Below, in pieces: positions 1-23,280 of a DNA stretch of 64,000 nucleotides. Each line of letters begins with the position of its first letter. Within the stretch, counting starts at the first letter, position 1. The notes beneath the pieces were generated by a model. It worked only from the letters and a program-made list of their open reading frames with translations. It did no database searches and was not told where the DNA came from. Source of the stretch: Idiomarina loihiensis (lineage in GTDB: Bacteria; Pseudomonadota; Gammaproteobacteria; Enterobacterales; Alteromonadaceae); contig NZ_CP074112.1 in assembly GCF_024584785.1 (NCBI RefSeq), forward strand, positions 1,860,001 through 1,924,000. The letters run 5' to 3'. Position numbers and translations under genes: made by a program.

Positions 1-43
1 ATTACCTTTCAGGTCAAGCGACAGCGCACGGTCGCGGGCTTAT
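1..43 (-). other. Intergenic leader of the next minus-strand gene
   Basis: Read on the minus strand, these 43 bases follow the rlmN stop codon and end with an AAAGG purine run close to the window edge. That is what a ribosome binding site for a gene starting just outside the window would look like. In relatives rlmN is usually followed by a pilF/pilW-type gene, but nothing here proves it. Confidence 0.3.
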
Positions 44-1177
44 TTACAGCGCCTTGACATCGATGCCATCGCCACCGCGTTGGGCTTGCTGCTTTTTCAG
101 AATCCGTTTGGTGCGGTCAATCACATCGCCGACTAACTGGCCGCATGCGGCATCAATATCATCGCCACGAGTACGACGGACGACGACGATGTAGCCTTTT
201 TCCATCAGCACTTTGGCAAAACGGTCAATGCGTGAGTTGCTGGAGCGCCCGTAATCAGAGCCCGGGAATGGGTTAAATGGGATCAGGTTGATCTTGCTCG
301 GGGTATCTTTCAATAACTCGGCAAGTTCCGCGGCCTGTTCCATCGAATCGTTGATATGATCCAGCATTACGTATTCGATGGTGATGTTTTTATTGGCTTT
401 AGAGCCTTCGATGTAATCGCGGCTAGCTTTTAAAAACTCTTGAATATTGTACTTTTTATTGATGGGTACGATTTCGTTACGTAGCTCATCGTTGGGCGCA
501 TGCAAAGAGATCGCAAGAGCCACGTCGATTTGTTCTTTGAGCTTATATAAAGCCGGCACCACGCCAGAGGTGCTTAGAGTGACGCGACGTTTGGACAAAC
601 CAAAAGCGTTGTCGTCGAGCATCAGATCCATGGCTGGCACCACATTGGTCAGGTTGAGCAAGGGCTCGCCCATGCCCATCATCACTACGTTCGTCACGGC
701 TTTCACGCCGGTATCGCCAAAGGCACCTAGCAGTTTGTTCACCCGCCACACCTGGCCAATGATTTCGGCCACGCGCAAGTTCCGGTTGAACCCTTGCTGC
801 GCCGTTGAGCAGAAAGTGCATTCTAGTGCACAACCTACCTGCGAACTCACGCACAAAGTGGCGCGGTCACGATCTGGGATCCAAACCGTCTCCACGTCTT
901 GGCCATCAAACAAGGTCATCGCGAACTTGATGGTGCCATCGGCAGACTGCTGCTGCAGCCGCACTTCCGGGGCACGCACCTCGGCAACTTGCTTAAGCTT
1001 TTCGCGCAACGCCTTGTTAAGGTTGGTCATTCGGTCAAAATCATCAATGCAGAAATGATACAACCACTTCATCACCTGATCAGCGCGAAATGGTTTTTCG
1101 CCCAATTCTTGAAAGAACTCACGCATTGCGGCGCGGTTCAAATCGAGCAAATTCACTTTTTTATCAACTGCATTCAT
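44..1177 (-). CDS. rlmN: 23S rRNA (adenine2503-C2)/tRNA methyltransferase RlmN
   Basis: Radical-SAM enzyme that methylates C2 of A2503 in 23S rRNA and of A37 in some tRNAs. The 377-aa protein carries the cluster-binding CxxxCxxC motif (CALECTFC) after a conserved SSQVG segment, the GMGEPLLN motif, and near the C-terminus the cysteine of DAACGQ that forms the methyl-carrying intermediate in this family. Length is normal. The start ATGAATGCA is used; a second in-frame ATG lies later. It lies downstream of ndk on the same strand, the usual ndk-rlmN order of gammaproteobacteria, but here the 150-bp gap holds an inverted-repeat/heptamer element. Confidence 0.97.
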
Positions 1178-1206
1178 TTAATTAAAACCTTAGTGCGATA
1201 TTGGGT

Positions 1207-1306
1207 ATTCGTAATTCGTGGTTCGTACGTTCACTTCGTTCACTGTTCGTCCGCTACGCTATTCGCGAACAGCGCAAAGCGCGGACGAACAGCGAAGCGT
1301 ACGAAT
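1207..1306. repeat. Heptamer and inverted-repeat element between rlmN and ndk
   Basis: Three head-to-tail 7-mers, ATTCGTA, ATTCGTG and GTTCGTA (1207-1227), lead into an imperfect inverted repeat. GTTCGTCCGC at 1245-1254 pairs exactly with GCGGACGAAC at 1281-1290, and the array's ATTCGTA is mirrored by TACGAAT at 1300-1306. A related copy lies at 60480-60530 next to ispB. It may form a transcript hairpin between ndk and rlmN; function unknown. Confidence 0.75.
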
Positions 1307-1326
1307 AACGATTAACGCTCTTACTA

Positions 1327-1758
1327 TTAACGAGTACGAGCGCAGATTTCTTCGTCGCTGAAGAAGTACGCGATTTCACGTGCTGCTGATTCTACTGCGT
1401 CAGAACCGTGTACTGCGTTCTCATCGATAGATACAGCATAGTCTGCGCGCAAGGTACCTGCCAGTGCGTCAGCTGGGTTGGTAGCACCCATGATATCGCG
1501 GTGACGTTTAACCGCGTTGTCGCCTTCAAGTACTTGCACCATGATTGGGCCAGAGGTCATGAAATCTACCAACGCGCGGAAGAAAGGACGCTCTTTGTGT
1601 TCAGCGTAGAAGCCTTCTGCTTGCTCAGTGCTCAGGTGCATCATTTTAGCTGCAACGATACGGAAACCAGCAGTTTCGAAACGGTTGTAGATAGCGCCGA
1701 TGACGTTTTTGCCAACAGCGTCTGGCTTGATAATTGATAAAGTGCGCTCTAAAGCCAT
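1327..1758 (-). CDS. ndk: Nucleoside diphosphate kinase
   Basis: Transfers the gamma phosphate of ATP to nucleoside diphosphates through a phosphohistidine. The 143-aa protein begins [15 protein letters not shown], the family's usual N-terminus, and contains the active-site segment [12 protein letters not shown] with the catalytic histidine. The start at 1758 is chosen because GGAG lies 6 bases upstream; a four-codon longer reading is possible but has no better site. Length equals that of typical bacterial Ndk. In related genomes ndk usually follows the isc operon directly; here about 11.7 kb of other genes separate fdx from ndk. Confidence 0.97.
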
Positions 1759-2154
1759 GATTTTCTCCAATCAAGTTTAAAAGTTAAAGGGTCAAAATCT
1801 TAGTCGCGCGGATTATACATGAACGCCGCTGGCGCGGCTAGTGCGGGAGGAACTTGCGGACCCAGCTCCGGAGCTGGGTCCGCAAGTCTTTCAAGAGGAG
1901 GTGGTAAAATAGCTCATCGGTAATTCACGGCTGAGTGCAAAAGGCACGGCAGTGGCGGGATGCGGTTGCTGATAGAAATTGTTTGATGGTGGGTGAAGCT
2001 GAGTGATTGGCTGCTTGTTGCGGCTGAATTTACGGTACTGAGGCGCTTACGGTTGTAGGTGGTTTGCGCCAATTACCGGCGCAGTTTGGCGGACATTAGG
2101 GCTAGTTAGTCACTTACACCTGCACTTTTTATCATTAGAATAAGGATGTTATCT
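1759..2154. other. Intergenic region with palindrome; otherwise nothing recognised
   Basis: About 400 bases between divergent ndk and the outer-membrane protein gene. It holds the 36-bp palindrome at 1852-1887 and, presumably, promoters for both flanking genes, but I could not place either with confidence. No ORF with a credible start was seen between 1905 and 2140. Confidence 0.5.
1846..1888. repeat. Palindromic repeat, intergenic copy
   Basis: A perfect 36-bp palindrome (1852-1887), each arm being ACTTGCGGACCCAGCTCC or its complement. With flanks, 43 bases (1846-1888) are identical to the minus strand of 3656-3698, inside the sensor-kinase gene. The copy here lies between ndk and the outer-membrane gene. 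It behaves as a dispersed palindromic element. Confidence 0.9.
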
Positions 2155-2772
2155 ATGCATGGTTTAGGACGAGTTTTGGTGGTTGGGACGCTGGCTTTGG
2201 CGCTGCAAGGGTTGGCCAGCGGCACTGCGCAAGCGCGTAGTTACGGTTATCGACCGGCGCCGCCACCGGCTCCCTCGTTTGATTTTTTGAATGCCGGTTT
2301 TGCTAGTGGTAAATGGGGCGATGACTGGGCCAACGGCGCTATTGTGGGCGCATCTTTTATGTTGACCGATGCTTGGTTTGGCTACCTGAATGCGGACCGC
2401 GAGAGTCTGGATGACGCCTCGATGACGACCCTTAATGCGGGCTTGGGATACGCCCACAGTTACCGTCAGAACACGGTGATTTATGGCGGCTTTGGCTTTA
2501 TTCAGGGGCGGATTGATTGGGGTGACCAAGCTGATGCTATCGGGGCAGTGACCGAGTCTGGCTACGAACTCAATGTTGGCGTGCGCCATCGGGTGAATCA
2601 GCAGTTAGAGCTTGATGCGCGCTTTGGCCATGTGGATCTCGGCGCCGGAGACCAAAATTTGCGTTTGCTTGGGCGCTACTATGTGAATCAACGCTGGGCG
2701 GTGGAGCTCGGCTACACCTTTGTTAATTCCGACAGTGCTTTGGCGCAAGTCGGTTTCAGCTATCATTTTTAA
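2155..2772 (+). CDS. Outer-membrane beta-barrel protein of unknown role
   Basis: A 205-aa exported protein. An N-terminal signal peptide (VLVVGTLALALQGLASG, cleaved near AQA) is followed by alternating hydrophobic/polar strands rich in Gly, Tyr and Asn, and the chain ends in VGFSYHF, with the C-terminal aromatic residue used by outer-membrane barrels for BAM recognition. About eight strands are likely, as in small porin-like or OmpA-barrel proteins. The ATG at 2155 is preferred over that at 2146 because AAGGA sits at 2142-2146 with an 8-base spacing. It is convergent with the two-component operon. The specific role is not recognised. Confidence 0.75.
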   Translation: MHGLGRVLVVGTLALALQGLASGTAQARSYGYRPAPPPAPSFDFLNAGFASGKWGDDWANGAIVGASFMLTDAWFGYLNADRESLDDASMTTLNAGLGYAHSYRQNTVIYGGFGFIQGRIDWGDQADAIGAVTESGYELNVGVRHRVNQQLELDARFGHVDLGAGDQNLRLLGRYYVNQRWAVELGYTFVNSDSALAQVGFSYHF

Positions 2773-2794
2773 TTGGGTTTGATGTTTTCTGCCG

Positions 2795-2826
2795 GTTGCG
2801 GTCGTCAGCACGACGGCCGCAGTTTT
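2795..2826 (+). terminator. Possible weak terminator after the barrel gene
   Basis: An imperfect hairpin pairs TGCGGTCGT with ACGACGGCCGCA, with a small bulge, followed by only four T residues. It lies between the convergent barrel and kinase genes. The short T run makes this a weak call. Confidence 0.3.
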
Positions 2827-2840
2827 AAGTTTAAGCTCAG

Positions 2841-4331
2841 TTATAAGTTGAAACGCAACTGTACTTGTAAGCCACCGAGGTGGCTAGGTCCCAACTGCAT
2901 CTCCACGCCATACAAATGCGCCAGCTCGGCCGCAACCGTTAAGCCAATTCCACTACCCTGCACCGACATGTCATGACGTTTGCCTCTTGCTAAAGCTTGC
3001 TGGCACTGCTCGTCGGTCATACCTGGGCCATCATCATCGATTTGTAGCAACAGCGTTGGTGGTGCTGCCGTGGCATCAGCCACGCCTTTAACGTTGCCAG
3101 TAACTTTGCCAGTGACGTTGCCAGAGACTGTGGCAGCGGTGGTGGTAGAGATAGTGGCGCTGAAACTCAGTTGCTGATGGGAATATTTCAAGGCATTTTC
3201 TAACAGGTTGCCGACAATTTCTTGTAAATCCGGTGCTGCTACGGGTACGGCGATGGCGGCTAGCTGCGGCTGGTCAAGCTGGCTGTAACTGAACTTGCGT
3301 TGGCGCTGCTTGGCCATGCTGGCGATGGCTGCGAGGATCGGCTGTAGCGCTGCTTGCAGATTCGCATGAGCCGCGAGCTGGTGAGTACCTACTGCGGCTG
3401 CGCGCGCTAAATGGTGCTGTACCACTTGGTCCATACGATGGATTTCTCGAGTGAATTCAGCAGCAAGCTGCGGCGGTAGTTCGGCTAGTTGGCTTTGCAT
3501 CACCGCCAACGGCGTTTTGAGGCTATGGGCCAAATTCGCAGCGGCGGCACGGCTGTGTTCAAGCAGCTTTTCATCGCGCTCAAGCACGTCGTTAAGTGCC
3601 TCAGCTAACGGTTTGAGCTCACTGCTTAGAGCGGCGCTATCGAGCCGCGATGAGGGACTTGCGGACCCAGCTCCGGAGCTGGGTCCGCAAGTTCCTCCAT
3701 GGCGGAGACGCTGTAGTTGGTGGCTAAGGCTGGCGAGGGGGGCGAGTACCCAGCGCAGTTGGACAGCGAGAAACAGCAGTAAGACGGCGGCTAGGCCGGC
3801 TAGCGCGAGCCACAACACTTGGTTAAAGGCGGCAACTTCGCGGTCTATTTCGGCCACGGGGCCGCCCACCATCACATGAATCGGCTGTTCTAGCTGGGCG
3901 AGCAAATAATCTCGTTCGGAGACGCGTAAGGCTTGCTGCTGGGGGCCAATGCCGGGGCGCAAGATCAAGTTATTCACAACGCCATCAACGCTCGGTTGCA
4001 AGCGTTGGTCCCACAGCGATCGCGACAGCGCGAGGGTTTGTTCGGCACTGCTGATCTGCCAATACCACCCCGAGTAAATCTCATGAAAGCGATGGTCACC
4101 TAACTTATCTTGAACTTCTAATTCGCCCATGGCGTTCACTTCTAAGGCAGCCACCAGCACGTTCTGCCAAGCCGTGAGGCGAGCATCGAACGACGCGGTA
4201 ACGGAGCGTTCGAAGGCATGACTGAGGGCCCATCCTGCGCTAGGCAGAGCTACCAACAGCAACACCAGGCCAGCGATTATCGTGCGCTGACGTATGCTGA
4301 TGGGTGGTACCGTGCGAGTCGCTTTTGGCAT
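2841..4331 (-). CDS. Sensor histidine kinase, PhoQ/QseC-like
   Basis: Membrane kinase of 496 aa that pairs with the response regulator just upstream. Features in order: TM1 (about 18-34), a periplasmic sensor region (about 35-165), TM2 (about 173-190), a HAMP-like linker, the H-box LAHSLKTPLAV with phospho-accepting His about residue 269, the N-box GNLLENALKYS, and ATP-lid motifs DDDGPGM and GSGIGLTVA. The start at 4331 lies one base after the regulator's stop, indicating translational coupling; a longer upstream reading would run inside the regulator gene. Residues about 212-226 are encoded by a dispersed palindromic repeat, giving an unusual Gly/Ser-rich linker before the dimerisation helix. 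The signal sensed is unknown; linkage to PepSY proteins suggests an envelope stimulus. Confidence 0.9.
   Translation of the reverse strand: MPKATRTVPPISIRQRTIIAGLVLLLVALPSAGWALSHAFERSVTASFDARLTAWQNVLVAALEVNAMGELEVQDKLGDHRFHEIYSGWYWQISSAEQTLALSRSLWDQRLQPSVDGVVNNLILRPGIGPQQQALRVSERDYLLAQLEQPIHVMVGGPVAEIDREVAAFNQVLWLALAGLAAVLLLFLAVQLRWVLAPLASLSHQLQRLRHGGTCGPSSGAGSASPSSRLDSAALSSELKPLAEALNDVLERDEKLLEHSRAAAANLAHSLKTPLAVMQSQLAELPPQLAAEFTREIHRMDQVVQHHLARAAAVGTHQLAAHANLQAALQPILAAIASMAKQRQRKFSYSQLDQPQLAAIAVPVAAPDLQEIVGNLLENALKYSHQQLSFSATISTTTAATVSGNVTGKVTGNVKGVADATAAPPTLLLQIDDDGPGMTDEQCQQALARGKRHDMSVQGSGIGLTVAAELAHLYGVEMQLGPSHLGGLQVQLRFNL
3656..3698 (-). repeat. Palindromic repeat inside the kinase coding sequence
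   Basis: Second copy of the 43-bp element found at 1846-1888, with the 36-bp perfect palindrome at 3657-3692. The reading frame stays open through it and encodes GGTCGPSSGAGSASP. This recalls the protein-coding palindromic elements described in Rickettsia, though the sequence is unrelated as far as I can tell. Confidence 0.9.
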
Positions 4332-4332
4332 G

Positions 4333-5001
4333 TTAATCAACCGCTGGGGCTTGCACGCGATAGCCTTGGCCACGAATGGTTTCGATAAAATCACGGCCGA
4401 GTTTTTTGCGCAGTCGGGCAACTTGAACATCGATAACATTGGAGTCCGGCTCTTCGTCGCGGTCGTACACGTGGTCGTGTAACTCACTACGACTTACGAT
4501 ACGGCCACTAGCATGCATTAAGTAGCCGATTAACTTGGTTTCTTGTGCGGTAAGCTTAACCGGCATGCCCTGTTTGCTGAGCTGATTGGTGAGGGTGTCG
4601 AAGACCACCTCGCCAACGGTTAAATGCGGGTGGGCTTGGCCGTAACTGCGGCGGATCAGCGCCTTAACGCGCATTAATAATTCCGCCACCGCAAAAGGTT
4701 TCACCAGGTAGTCATCAGCGCCAGCATTAAAGCCGCTAGCTTTATCGGCCCACGTGCCGCGCGCGGTTAAAATGAGCGTGACGATACCAATGCCAGCTTG
4801 ACGCCAGCGCTGCAACCAATCGCTGCCTTGGCCGTCGGGGAGGCCCAAATCTAAGATCAGCAAATCAAACACTTCGGTGCTTAACAAATAGTCAGCCGCG
4901 GCGCCGGTACCGGCGTGGTCGACGTTATAGCCGGCCTCGGTCAGCACCTTGGTGAGGTTTTGCGCCAATTTGATATCGTCTTCAACAATCAAAATTTTCA
5001 T
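4333..5001 (-). CDS. OmpR-family response regulator, PhoP/QseB-like
   Basis: A 222-aa DNA-binding regulator. The receiver domain (1-115) starts MKILIVEDDIKLAQNL with the acidic pocket, the phospho-accepting Asp in LILDLGLPDG (about residue 51), the conserved Thr/Ser of LTARG and the Lys of LVKPF. The winged-helix domain (about 125-218) contains the ETKLIGYLM and VIDVQVARLRKKLG segments of OmpR/PhoB proteins. It is first in a two-gene operon with the sensor kinase (1-base gap). A 7-bp tandem array lies immediately upstream of its start, between it and the PepSY gene, so its own promoter may overlap the array. Confidence 0.93.
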   Translation of the reverse strand: MKILIVEDDIKLAQNLTKVLTEAGYNVDHAGTGAAADYLLSTEVFDLLILDLGLPDGQGSDWLQRWRQAGIGIVTLILTARGTWADKASGFNAGADDYLVKPFAVAELLMRVKALIRRSYGQAHPHLTVGEVVFDTLTNQLSKQGMPVKLTAQETKLIGYLMHASGRIVSRSELHDHVYDRDEEPDSNVIDVQVARLRKKLGRDFIETIRGQGYRVQAPAVD

Positions 5002-5008
5002 GCAAGTT

Positions 5009-5134
5009 ACTCATAACCGATGGTTCCTAGCTGATGATTTATAGCTGATGGTTCATAACCGATGGTTCCGAGCCCATCATTCATGGCCCATCATTCATGG
5101 CCGATAACTCATGGCTGTTTGCTCATGGCTTTTA
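5009..5134. repeat. 18-unit heptamer array reaching into a PepSY gene
   Basis: An uninterrupted run of 7-base units: ACTCATA, ACCGATG, GTTCCTA, GCTGATG, ATTTATA, GCTGATG, GTTCATA, ACCGATG, GTTCCGA, GCCCATC, ATTCATG and so on to GCTTTTA. A 14-bp higher-order period is visible (GCCCATC-ATTCATG twice). It fills the 107-bp gap between the response regulator and the PepSY gene and continues past the PepSY stop codon (5109-5111) into its last codons. Confidence 0.8.
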
Positions 5135-5459
5135 ACTGACGCCCTTCTACGCTCATAAGCTCGCCGGTACGGGCGGCAAATTCAAACTCGGCCCGTTGCC
5201 CTTGGGGGCCGATCATCTCTATCTCGTAGACGAGCATACCATCATCGTCTTCTAATTCTATCTCCACGATTTCGCCGTAATAGCGCTCGCGTAAATACGC
5301 CAAGATCACTTCTAACGACACCACCTCGCCCGCTTGCACTTGTTGGTACAAACGTTGCTGTTGCTTGTTGTCGGGCCAGGCACCCGCGGGCGCAGCCAGA
5401 GCCGCTTGCAGGCCCCAACTAAGACTGGTGACAAAGATGAGATAAGATAACTTGTTCAT
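5109..5459 (-). CDS. Exported PepSY-domain protein
   Basis: A 116-aa periplasmic protein with a signal peptide (LSYLIFVTSLSWGLQAALA, cleavage near AAPAG) and one PepSY domain: VSLEVILAYLRERYYGEIVEIELEDDDGMLVYEIEMIG, then the typical FAARTGELMSVEGRQL end. PepSY proteins are often co-located with PhoPQ-like systems and are thought to act as periplasmic inhibitors or modulators, though mechanism is rarely shown. The start at 5459 is chosen for the signal peptide; its ribosome binding site is weak, and a 12-codon longer version from 5495 is possible. The last codons lie in a heptamer array. It is divergent from the second PepSY gene. Confidence 0.82.
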   Translation of the reverse strand: MNKLSYLIFVTSLSWGLQAALAAPAGAWPDNKQQQRLYQQVQAGEVVSLEVILAYLRERYYGEIVEIELEDDDGMLVYEIEMIGPQGQRAEFEFAARTGELMSVEGRQLKAMSKQP

Positions 5460-5483
5460 GGCGCTAAGCTTACCCGAAAAAGG

Positions 5484-5521
5484 GTTCACGAACATGAACC
5501 AAACATGAACGAGTGGTTCAT
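5484..5521. promoter_or_regulatory. Candidate direct-repeat operator between PepSY genes
   Basis: On the minus strand GTTCAT occurs twice, separated by five bases (plus-strand ATGAAC at 5494-5499 and 5505-5510), an 11-bp period. This is the geometry of PhoP-type boxes, whose hexamer is (T/G)GTTTA. The palindrome GTTCACGAAC (5484-5493) and an inverted GTTCAT (5516-5521) flank it. It sits between two divergent PepSY genes beside the two-component operon, so the regulator is the obvious candidate ligand; this is inference. Confidence 0.5.
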
Positions 5522-5579
5522 ACTAGGCTCATTGATAGGCTGATAGGATAGCTGCAACATCAACAAAGGAGTACCGACT

Positions 5580-6038
5580 ATGACAAACAAAAGCTTGGTA
5601 GTAAGTTTAGCAGCCGTATTACTAATGGGCACAACTGCCGTAGTTGCAGCTAACTCAGCGGTTACCGCCAACAGCCAAATGGAGCAGTTGCAAGCGCTTA
5701 AGAATTACGGCTATACCCATGTTAATGAGCTGGAGTGGGATGATCATCGCCCGCAACTGGAAGTAGAAGGTTGGCTAGCCGATAACTGGTTTGCCGAAGT
5801 GACGTTTCAGGGTGCCGGAGCCGCAGCTGAAGTAAAGCGCGAGCGCAAGGAAAGTAAAATCGTACAGCCGTGGGGATTGACCTTGGCGCAAGTTGAACAA
5901 GTGATGCAACAGGCGAATAGTCAAGGCATGGCGGTGTTTGAAGAGATCTCAATTGATGATAGCGGTCGTATTGAGCTTGAAGGTGACAACGCCAACGGTC
6001 GTGAACTAGAGCTGCGTTTTCATATCCGCGAGCTGTAA
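5580..6038 (+). CDS. Exported PepSY-like protein
   Basis: A 152-aa periplasmic protein. The signal peptide runs LVVSLAAVLLMGTTAVVAANS. The mature part has two repeats of the PepSY fold's helix-strand pattern: MEQLQALKNYGYTHVNELEWD with a following beta hairpin, then LTLAQVEQVMQQANSQGMA with EEISIDDSGRIELEGDN and a final ELELRFHIREL. AAGGAG lies 8 bases before the ATG. Divergent from the other PepSY gene and probably controlled from the same regulatory gap by the adjacent two-component system. Precise function unknown. Confidence 0.8.
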   Translation: MTNKSLVVSLAAVLLMGTTAVVAANSAVTANSQMEQLQALKNYGYTHVNELEWDDHRPQLEVEGWLADNWFAEVTFQGAGAAAEVKRERKESKIVQPWGLTLAQVEQVMQQANSQGMAVFEEISIDDSGRIELEGDNANGRELELRFHIREL

Positions 6039-6080
6039 CTAACGCCCCCTCTCAGTAACGATAACAGCAACGATAACAAA

Positions 6081-6113
6081 CGGGTGGCCACGTGCGCGTG
6101 GTCGCTCGTTTTT
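6081..6113 (+). terminator. Rho-independent terminator after the PepSY gene
   Basis: A 12-bp stem, including three G-T wobbles, pairs 6081-6092 with 6097-6108 around a TGCG loop, followed by five T residues. It lies 43 bases after the PepSY stop and before msrA. Confidence 0.75.
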
Positions 6114-6242
6114 GTTGCTGTGGCTTGATCAGAGGCTTTACAAACTATGGCTGCAGGCGTAAAGTAACACCATCTAGTACAGGCATCTAGACGTCTATTC
6201 GCGGGATGTCTTTTCGTTCTTTTGCGACGGAGTTTACAAGTT

Positions 6243-6776
6243 ATGACGCAACAAATTACTTTAGGCGGCGGTTGTTTTTGGTGCCTTGAAGGCGCCTTCA
6301 AGCAAGTGCGTGGGGTATTAAAGGTGCAGTCCGGTTATGCCGGCGGCCATAAAGCCGAACCTACCTACGAAGATGTCTGCAAGGGCGATACCGGCCACGC
6401 TGAGGTGGTACAAATCACTTTTGAGCCGACCTCGCTGAGCCTGCGCGAGATTTATGAGATCTTTTTTGCACTGCATGATCCCACTCAGATCAACCGTCAA
6501 GGTAACGATATTGGCAGCCAATATCGCACCTCGATTTTCTATCAGACCGATGAGCAGCAGCGTTTGGCGCAAGAAATCATTACGGAAATGGAGCGCGAGC
6601 AAACCTGGGATGCGCCTATTGTGACCACCGTTGAGCCGCTGGAAAAATTCTGGCCGGCCGAGGAATATCACGACAACTACGTGGAACGTAATCCTGAAAA
6701 TGCCTACTGCCAAGCAGTGGTACATCCTAAGTTGGCGAAGTTTAAGAGGACTTTTGCTGAGAAACTTGACGGCTAA
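6243..6776 (+). CDS. msrA: Peptide methionine-S-sulfoxide reductase MsrA
   Basis: Reduces the S epimer of methionine sulfoxide in proteins and so repairs oxidative damage. The 177-aa protein starts TQQITLGGGCFWCLEGAF with the catalytic GCFW cysteine; HAEVVQI, the glutamate-containing segments and the HDPTQINRQGNDIGSQYRT block are family hallmarks, and AYCQAV near the C-terminus carries a possible resolving cysteine. The start at 6243 follows GGAG with a 10-base spacing and gives the family's usual N-terminus. No signal peptide, so cytosolic. Single gene between two terminators. Confidence 0.95.
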   Translation: MTQQITLGGGCFWCLEGAFKQVRGVLKVQSGYAGGHKAEPTYEDVCKGDTGHAEVVQITFEPTSLSLREIYEIFFALHDPTQINRQGNDIGSQYRTSIFYQTDEQQRLAQEIITEMEREQTWDAPIVTTVEPLEKFWPAEEYHDNYVERNPENAYCQAVVHPKLAKFKRTFAEKLDG

Positions 6777-22465: not shown

Positions 22466-22609
22466 GCCTTTGCTTTTGCCAATAGCTAATGTCTAACAGC
22501 TAATAGCGCTCTTGCCTTTGCTTTTACCAATAGCTAATGTCTAACAGCTAACAGCGCTCTTGCCTTTGCTTTTACCAATAGCTAATGTCTAACAGCTAAC
22601 AGCGCTCTT
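22466..22609. repeat. Three 48-bp tandem repeats built from heptamers
   Basis: Units at 22466-22513, 22514-22561 and 22562-22609. Each has 20 bases beginning or ending in GCCTTTGCTTTT and GCGCTCTT plus four reverse heptamers (CAATAGC, TAATGTC, TAACAGC, TAACAGC or TAATAGC). Units two and three are identical; unit one differs at two positions. A recent expansion of the inverted half of a composite element, immediately before the ung 3' end. Confidence 0.92.
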
Positions 22610-22617
22610 GCTCTTAC

Positions 22618-23280
22618 TCAAGCAAATAACTCGGCCCCGGAGCGGTTGAGGAGTTTTGCTGTGGTGGCAAAATGCCCTGCTGTGAAAAAACCTCGATGCG
22701 CTGATAACGGCGACGGATGAACGGTTTGCAGAATGGTGTGGCGCGAGTCATCTATGAGCGCAGCCTTCTTCTGTGCGTGGGCGCCCCACAACATGAATAC
22801 TACTCCTTCGCGTTGCGCTGATACGGCCTGAATAGCAGCGTCGGTGAAGTTTTCCCAGCCCCACTTGGCATGGGAGTGTGCTTTGCCATGCTCGACGGTG
22901 AGTACGGTATTTAGCAATAAGATTCCACGTTTGGCCCAGCCTTCTAAGTTGCCGCTAGAGGGTATTTGATAGTCGGCAAAATCATGTTTGATAGCTTTAT
23001 AAATGTTACGTAGCGACGGTGGTATGGCGACGCCGTCGGCCACAGAAAAGGCTAAACCATGGGCTTGGCCAGGTCCGTGATACGGGTCTTGTCCGATAAT
23101 GACCACTTGTACTTGGCTCAATGGCGTGAGCTCAAAAGCGCGCAACACTTGCGCTGCGGGCGGATAAACGAGGCTCTGTTGACGCGCTGCCTGTACCCGT
23201 TGTTGCAACGGAGGCCAATAGGCTTGCTGTTGTTGTTGCGCTAACCAAGGTTGCCAATCGTTGTCTAACGTAAGCTGCAT
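22618..23280 (-). CDS. ung: Uracil-DNA glycosylase
   Basis: Removes uracil from DNA as the first step of base excision repair. The 220-aa family-1 enzyme has the catalytic water-activating GQDPYHGPGQAHGLAFSV and the leucine-intercalation HPSPLSAHRGFF motif, both intact. Length is normal. Single gene, divergent from the glycosyltransferase pair. Confidence 0.97.
   Translation of the reverse strand: MQLTLDNDWQPWLAQQQQQAYWPPLQQRVQAARQQSLVYPPAAQVLRAFELTPLSQVQVVIIGQDPYHGPGQAHGLAFSVADGVAIPPSLRNIYKAIKHDFADYQIPSSGNLEGWAKRGILLLNTVLTVEHGKAHSHAKWGWENFTDAAIQAVSAQREGVVFMLWGAHAQKKAALIDDSRHTILQTVHPSPLSAHRGFFTAGHFATTAKLLNRSGAELFA

Follow-up and report, generated by a model that had tools for sequence, protein, structure and literature searches.

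A palindromic element read in frame within a sensor kinase gene of Idiomarina loihiensis belongs to a RAYT-linked palindrome family that is probably mobile

The window analysed here, a stretch of 64,000 nucleotides of Idiomarina loihiensis DNA, contains a sensor histidine kinase gene with a response regulator gene directly upstream, which is likely to encode the partner of the kinase. The kinase gave a single match in the source genome (G000), and the curated model nearest to it was PhoQ, with a score far under the cut-off. The sequence cluster of the kinase comprises 11 members from 3 contigs. A palindromic element is present within the kinase gene and again in the intergenic gap between an ndk-like and an outer-membrane-protein-like gene. 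The features are as follows.

1327-1770, minus strand: ndk-like gene, flanking the intergenic element copy
1847-1892, plus strand: second copy of the 46-bp element, in the intergenic gap
1852-1887, no strand: 36-bp perfect palindrome, same sequence as 3657-3692
2146-2772, plus strand: outer-membrane-protein-like gene, flanking the intergenic element copy
2841-4331, minus strand: sensor histidine kinase gene, 496 aa, ATG at 4331
3652-3697, minus strand: 46-bp palindromic element in the kinase gene (G000:C1:1863652-1863697), in-frame reading GTCGPSSGAGSASP
3657-3692, no strand: 36-bp perfect palindrome, core of the kinase element, from a shuffle-tested palindrome search
4333-5001, minus strand: response regulator gene, 222 aa

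The 36-bp perfect palindrome at 1852-1887 and 3657-3692 had no match in 100 shuffles. The sequence-only reading of this DNA had described a 43-bp repeat with such a palindrome, once between genes and once in the kinase, and this was borne out with the second copy being a minus-strand reading: positions 1846-1888 on the plus strand are identical to 3656-3698 read on the minus strand, and the copies are oppositely oriented. The identity ends with the ends of the element, for which 46 bp (3652-3697 and 1847-1892) is a better extent than 43 bp. As single-stranded DNA, the 46-bp elements fold into hairpins of -21 to -23 kcal/mol (kinase copy, -22.9 kcal/mol, z -8.7; intergenic copy, -21.1 kcal/mol, z -7.6), and equal folding was obtained in no shuffle. 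No Rfam family reached the gathering score between positions 1 and 6500 of the window, and a known RNA family as the identity of the palindrome was rejected on this ground. Palindromic-looking intergenic DNA rich in TTCGTACG / TTCGCGAA was also seen at 1200-1310, in the gap that separates the first gene (44-1177) from the ndk-like one.

The element is in frame from codon 212 of the kinase, which begins at base 3698, and the earlier claim that the palindrome is read without breaking the frame holds. The conserved residues P198 and L239 are 41 residues apart in this kinase; among the matches listed (889 found), the spacing is 27 residues in 117/119 homologues and 28 in 2/119. The insert residues are thus absent from 119/119 of the homologues listed, 14 of them in 117 and 13 in 2, and the possibility that palindrome-free orthologues carry the same linker gave way to homologues that are 13-14 residues shorter. 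Because homologue P0015 has a Pfam HAMP match (26.7 bits, cut-off 25) that corresponds to kinase residues 192-251, the 14 extra residues are placed by alignment inside the HAMP domain, in the connector between its two helices and after the invariant glycine 212, and not between HAMP and the dimerisation helix as was originally read. An AlphaFold2 model built with 27 sequences (mean pLDDT 78.3, pTM 0.46) has a helix at 159-210, coil up to 239 and a helix at 240-284, and residues 218-226 fall below pLDDT 50, a low confidence that is partly expected as no homologue covers the insert. Judged from this model, the insert is most likely a tolerated flexible loop, and the low-confidence loop would fit tolerance at least as well as altered kinase behaviour. 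The kinase gene was not found in 25 same-genus genomes at E 1e-30, so that these genomes provide no DNA-level empty site, and tblastn against plasmids returned matches of <60% identity only (94 records). A second stretch of the kinase, residues 398-421 (window 3069-3140, minus strand), is missing from 26 homologues, contains short tandem repeats and has pLDDT <50. Tandem repeats of 14 bp were also present at 5011-5143, in the gap that follows the response regulator gene. Elsewhere in the window, repeats made up of heptamers resembling TATTAGC/CTAATAG occur at numerous sites (13817, 19713, 20676, 22466-22631, 29101 and 35537).

The source genome is a single contig of 2.90 Mb, in which the exact 36-mer was found three times (kinase, intergenic gap and RlmA) and once more with 2 mismatches. 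A looser arm pattern gave 35 arm matches genome-wide, which were grouped by script into about 21 elements, 8 of them inside recognisable genes; a 17-base arm match at 980534 was excluded as too short. A palindrome confined to two sites by segmental duplication, the outcome that the sequence-only reading had set against its own view, was rejected with the exact 36-mer present at three places and a family of about 21. All 17 two-armed elements are 46, 58, 70 or 82 bp long (n=7, 6, 3 and 1, respectively), i.e. in steps of 12 bp, a count that leaves out the one-armed or eroded elements at 1836450, 1847118, 2047715 and 2048030 and whose formal probability is overstated, the copies not being independent of one another. 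The same 12-bp step was found in 34/37 arm pairs of the T2SS stretches of G019, G012 and G017. Each of the 17 two-armed elements starts with GAGG, GAAG, GAAA or GAGC; the GT[AG]G tetranucleotide, the foot of classical REPs, is absent from all 17, and no terminal repeats with GGGGWSAS, a feature of TIRYTs, were seen by eye in them. Four of the 17 elements are stop-free in all six frames, and stop-freeness as a sign of design was rejected, as shuffling the kinase element with its palindrome preserved also gave sequences stop-free in six frames in 36% of cases; it is not remarkable for palindromes this GC-rich.

The only RAYT-like gene of the genome was found 23 kb upstream of the window, with elements of the same family on both sides.

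G000:C1:1836547-1837275: RAYT-like gene, 243 aa
G000:C1:1836318-375 and 1836450-510: elements before the RAYT gene
G000:C1:1837277-322: element at the RAYT stop codon

The encoded protein matches Pfam Y1_Tnp (45.7 bits, cut-off 23), NCBIfam REP_Tyr_transpos (E 7e-21; NF047646, 74.7 bits, under the curated cut-off of 80) and TnpArep of PDB 4er8 (E 4e-4). It carries the motifs NHFH, WE and YIELNP, and no C-terminal HTH domain was found in it with Pfam HTH models even at E 5. By its motifs and its length of 243 aa against a median of 238, it fits RAYT subclass 2.1. The gene lies in the densest element cluster: 10/21 elements are no more than 30 kb away (0.43 expected) and 15/21 no more than 150 kb away (2.17 expected), and this clustering may in part be local duplication. 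Separate from the RAYT, the genome has four IS200-like Y1 transposase frames, each of 149 aa, at G000:C1 529860, 596277, 1185205 and 2151120.

The eight in-frame elements lie in the kinase, GspD (close to its C-terminus), GspF, GspN, NtrC, RlmA and, twice, one TPR gene beside a GspE paralogue, which is taken from this context as MshN-like. Two further elements touch gene ends, one at the RAYT stop codon and the other at the end of a gene which we take to be alaA-like; the latter (G000:C1:1753587-1754922) has a type 1 element at both ends, a situation common to G019. Translation of the element gives a Gly/Ser/Ala/Pro-rich stretch, and all eight in-gene copies are read in the two hydrophilic frames with small residues and none in the basic one [(2/3)^8 = 0.04]. 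The GspN insert is absent in 11/11 relatives fetched (18 residues in 8 and 17 in 3), and the RlmA insert in 14/14 relatives aligned (10-12 residues, two fragments of G013 being left out of the comparison). Since the NtrC linker is of about equal length in 25/25 relatives, with no net gain, the element there appears to have replaced sequence instead of adding to it, or its neighbourhood to have shrunk. The GspF and TPR (MshN-like) linkers are too variable in length for a clean gain count. In these alignments the kinase and GspN show a clear net gain, RlmA a smaller one and NtrC none. The gain equals the element minus 4 bp in the kinase (42 = 46-4) and in GspN (54 = 58-4) against 8/11 relatives, being 51 against the other 3/11; as a general rule this was rejected, with RlmA and NtrC not fitting it.

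The RAYT was also found at 56-58% identity in three sister species (G012, G017 and G019), 11-12 kb from gspE, a distance that is 9 kb in G000. In these three genomes the arms of a type 2 palindrome (GAGRGGGGTGCRGMCCC) number 43, 47 and 41, respectively, against 0-2 in the other 23/26 genomes, and for a type 4 palindrome 19 sites were counted in G025, a genome with a RAYT of its own (43% identity), 4 in G003 and none in the other 24. Judged by these counts, palindrome type is seen to follow RAYT clade. The exceptions are type 1 elements in G024 and type 4 sites in G003 without a RAYT match at E 1e-5, type 1 also in G019 at the alaA-like locus, and one weak arm in G015. Of 12 element clusters in the T2SS stretch of G017, 7 are read in frame within genes that Pfam identified as GspD, E, F, J, K, L and N; of 13 in G025, 10 fall within eight reading frames, each with a match to a T2SS or pilin family. 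G012 and G019 look similar, with 7/13 and 7/12 in frame, the Pfam run having covered the G017 and G025 genes. In the GspF linker, the local palindrome type is present in G000, G012, G017, G019 and G025, while G011, G022 and G024 have related palindromes there. As the T2SS operon adjoins the RAYT, nearness to it may explain this load.

To our knowledge, no transposase is linked to the palindromic elements of Rickettsia. Those elements, of about 150 bp (PMC10969869), resemble the present ones as palindromes lying in frame within many genes but belong to another lineage, whereas the elements here are of 46-82 bp and RAYT-linked. The earlier view of coding palindromes as known chiefly in Rickettsia is contradicted by Di Nocera et al (2013, PMC3733652), who describe GTAG/CGTC REPs within genes of several other bacteria; these add residues to unrelated proteins, as here, and are suggested to be neutral where they lie in linkers or loops. 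The principle is thus already known. In the parts of that paper used here, related species share a REP site, as in Xanthomonas recB, and DNA repair genes are prominent, whereas in the present case type II secretion and envelope genes by the RAYT are affected. The same source gives TIRYTs terminal repeats with GGGGWSAS, which were not seen in the 17 elements. For REP/REPIN and RAYT systems (REPtrons), multi-copy palindromes, a flanked RAYT, one type per RAYT and RAYT synteny are described in the sections consulted (PMC3116915, PMC3390384, PMC6006769). All four are found here, with dispersed palindromes in number, but the GT[AG]G foot is lacking and lengths run from 46 to 82 bp in 12-bp steps; REP/REPINs are also mainly extragenic, whereas 8/21 copies here are inside genes and cluster near the RAYT. 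RAYTs are described as cutting single-stranded REPs at CT, with GTAG helping (PMC8266576). RAYT subclass 2.1 is characterised by NH[YF]H, W[EQ] and YIELNP motifs, a median of 238 aa and an extra C-terminal part (PMC6006769, Table 1), all of which have counterparts in the protein found here, with its extra C-terminal part. A helix-turn-helix domain at the C-terminus is a further mark of this subclass, and it is for this domain that no Pfam HTH model matched the present protein. The sections of this HuH survey drawn upon record in-frame REPs inside subclass 2.4 RAYT genes and no REP-like sequences for subclasses 2.1 and 2.3, unlike the present case with its palindrome family. Among the papers listed in the literature search, none linked RAYT or REPIN with Idiomarina or Pseudidiomarina. 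What is new is a palindrome family of non-GTAG type, linked to a RAYT of a subclass for which those sections report no REPs, together with the 12-bp length step and the repeated decoration of one secretion system.

The element in the kinase belongs to a palindrome family that is linked to a RAYT and compatible with coding sequence, each tolerating the other. In our reading this palindrome is probably a non-autonomous mobile element of the REP/REPIN type, mobilised by a RAYT and surviving in a loop. The mobiliser would most likely be the RAYT flanked by elements of the same family; the element, as a single-stranded hairpin, would be recognised by it and copied or moved, preferentially nearby. 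Copies within genes would persist where the frame is kept and the site is a loop or linker, and the kinase copy would have lengthened the HAMP connector by 14 residues, an addition that is presumably tolerated. Of the alternatives considered, the least probable is local copying free of any transposase, in which gene conversion, template switching or segmental duplication would have produced the kinase copy from the intergenic one, 1.8 kb away. The 43 bp shared in inverted orientation and the clustering of elements would suit such copying, but the same 36-mer lies 0.8 Mb off in RlmA, the identity stops at the element ends, and there are about 21 copies linked to the RAYT.

Retention of the palindromes as RNA or DNA structures (terminators, mRNA stabilisers or protein sites), with the in-gene copies as side effects, is improbable to nearly the same degree: the hairpins are strong and some elements begin at or near stop codons, such as those of the RAYT and the alaA-like gene, but there was no Rfam match in window 1-6500, 8/21 copies are within genes, and sister species differ in palindrome type. 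The HAMP connector is a signal-transmitting part, and an insert at this site, where homologue spacing is otherwise fixed at 27-28 residues among the matches listed, could have been kept for retuning HAMP signalling. We regard this as unlikely, if less so than the two preceding alternatives, as unrelated proteins carry the same element and the modelled loop is of low confidence and disordered-looking. Going beyond the RAYT-mobilised element, we suggest only tentatively, and with considerable doubt, that a subclass 2.1 RAYT might drive a protein-compatible palindrome. Its length steps of 12 bp (four codons) would make a net insertion of 42 + 12n bp that always keeps the frame, and its spread would be local. 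Within this genus, the RAYT and its palindrome would repeatedly have built and resized flexible linkers of a single secretion system and, in the present case, of a sensor kinase, each RAYT clade having its own palindrome type.

For coding palindromes, long puzzling in Rickettsia, a free-living bacterium now provides a likely mobiliser, and several sister species and palindrome types are available for comparison. It becomes testable whether the RAYT moves such elements, whether its action is local, and whether in-frame insertion comes from chance followed by selection or from the length of the element itself; T2SS parts, NtrC, RlmA and a HAMP kinase make up a natural set of proteins with added linkers. 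The T2SS genes of four relatives (L152, L151, L149 and L156) contain many in-frame palindromes, of types that belong to these relatives, and the NtrC genes of G003 and G006 (L205 and L207) have a GGGGCAGCCCC-type palindrome in the coding part.
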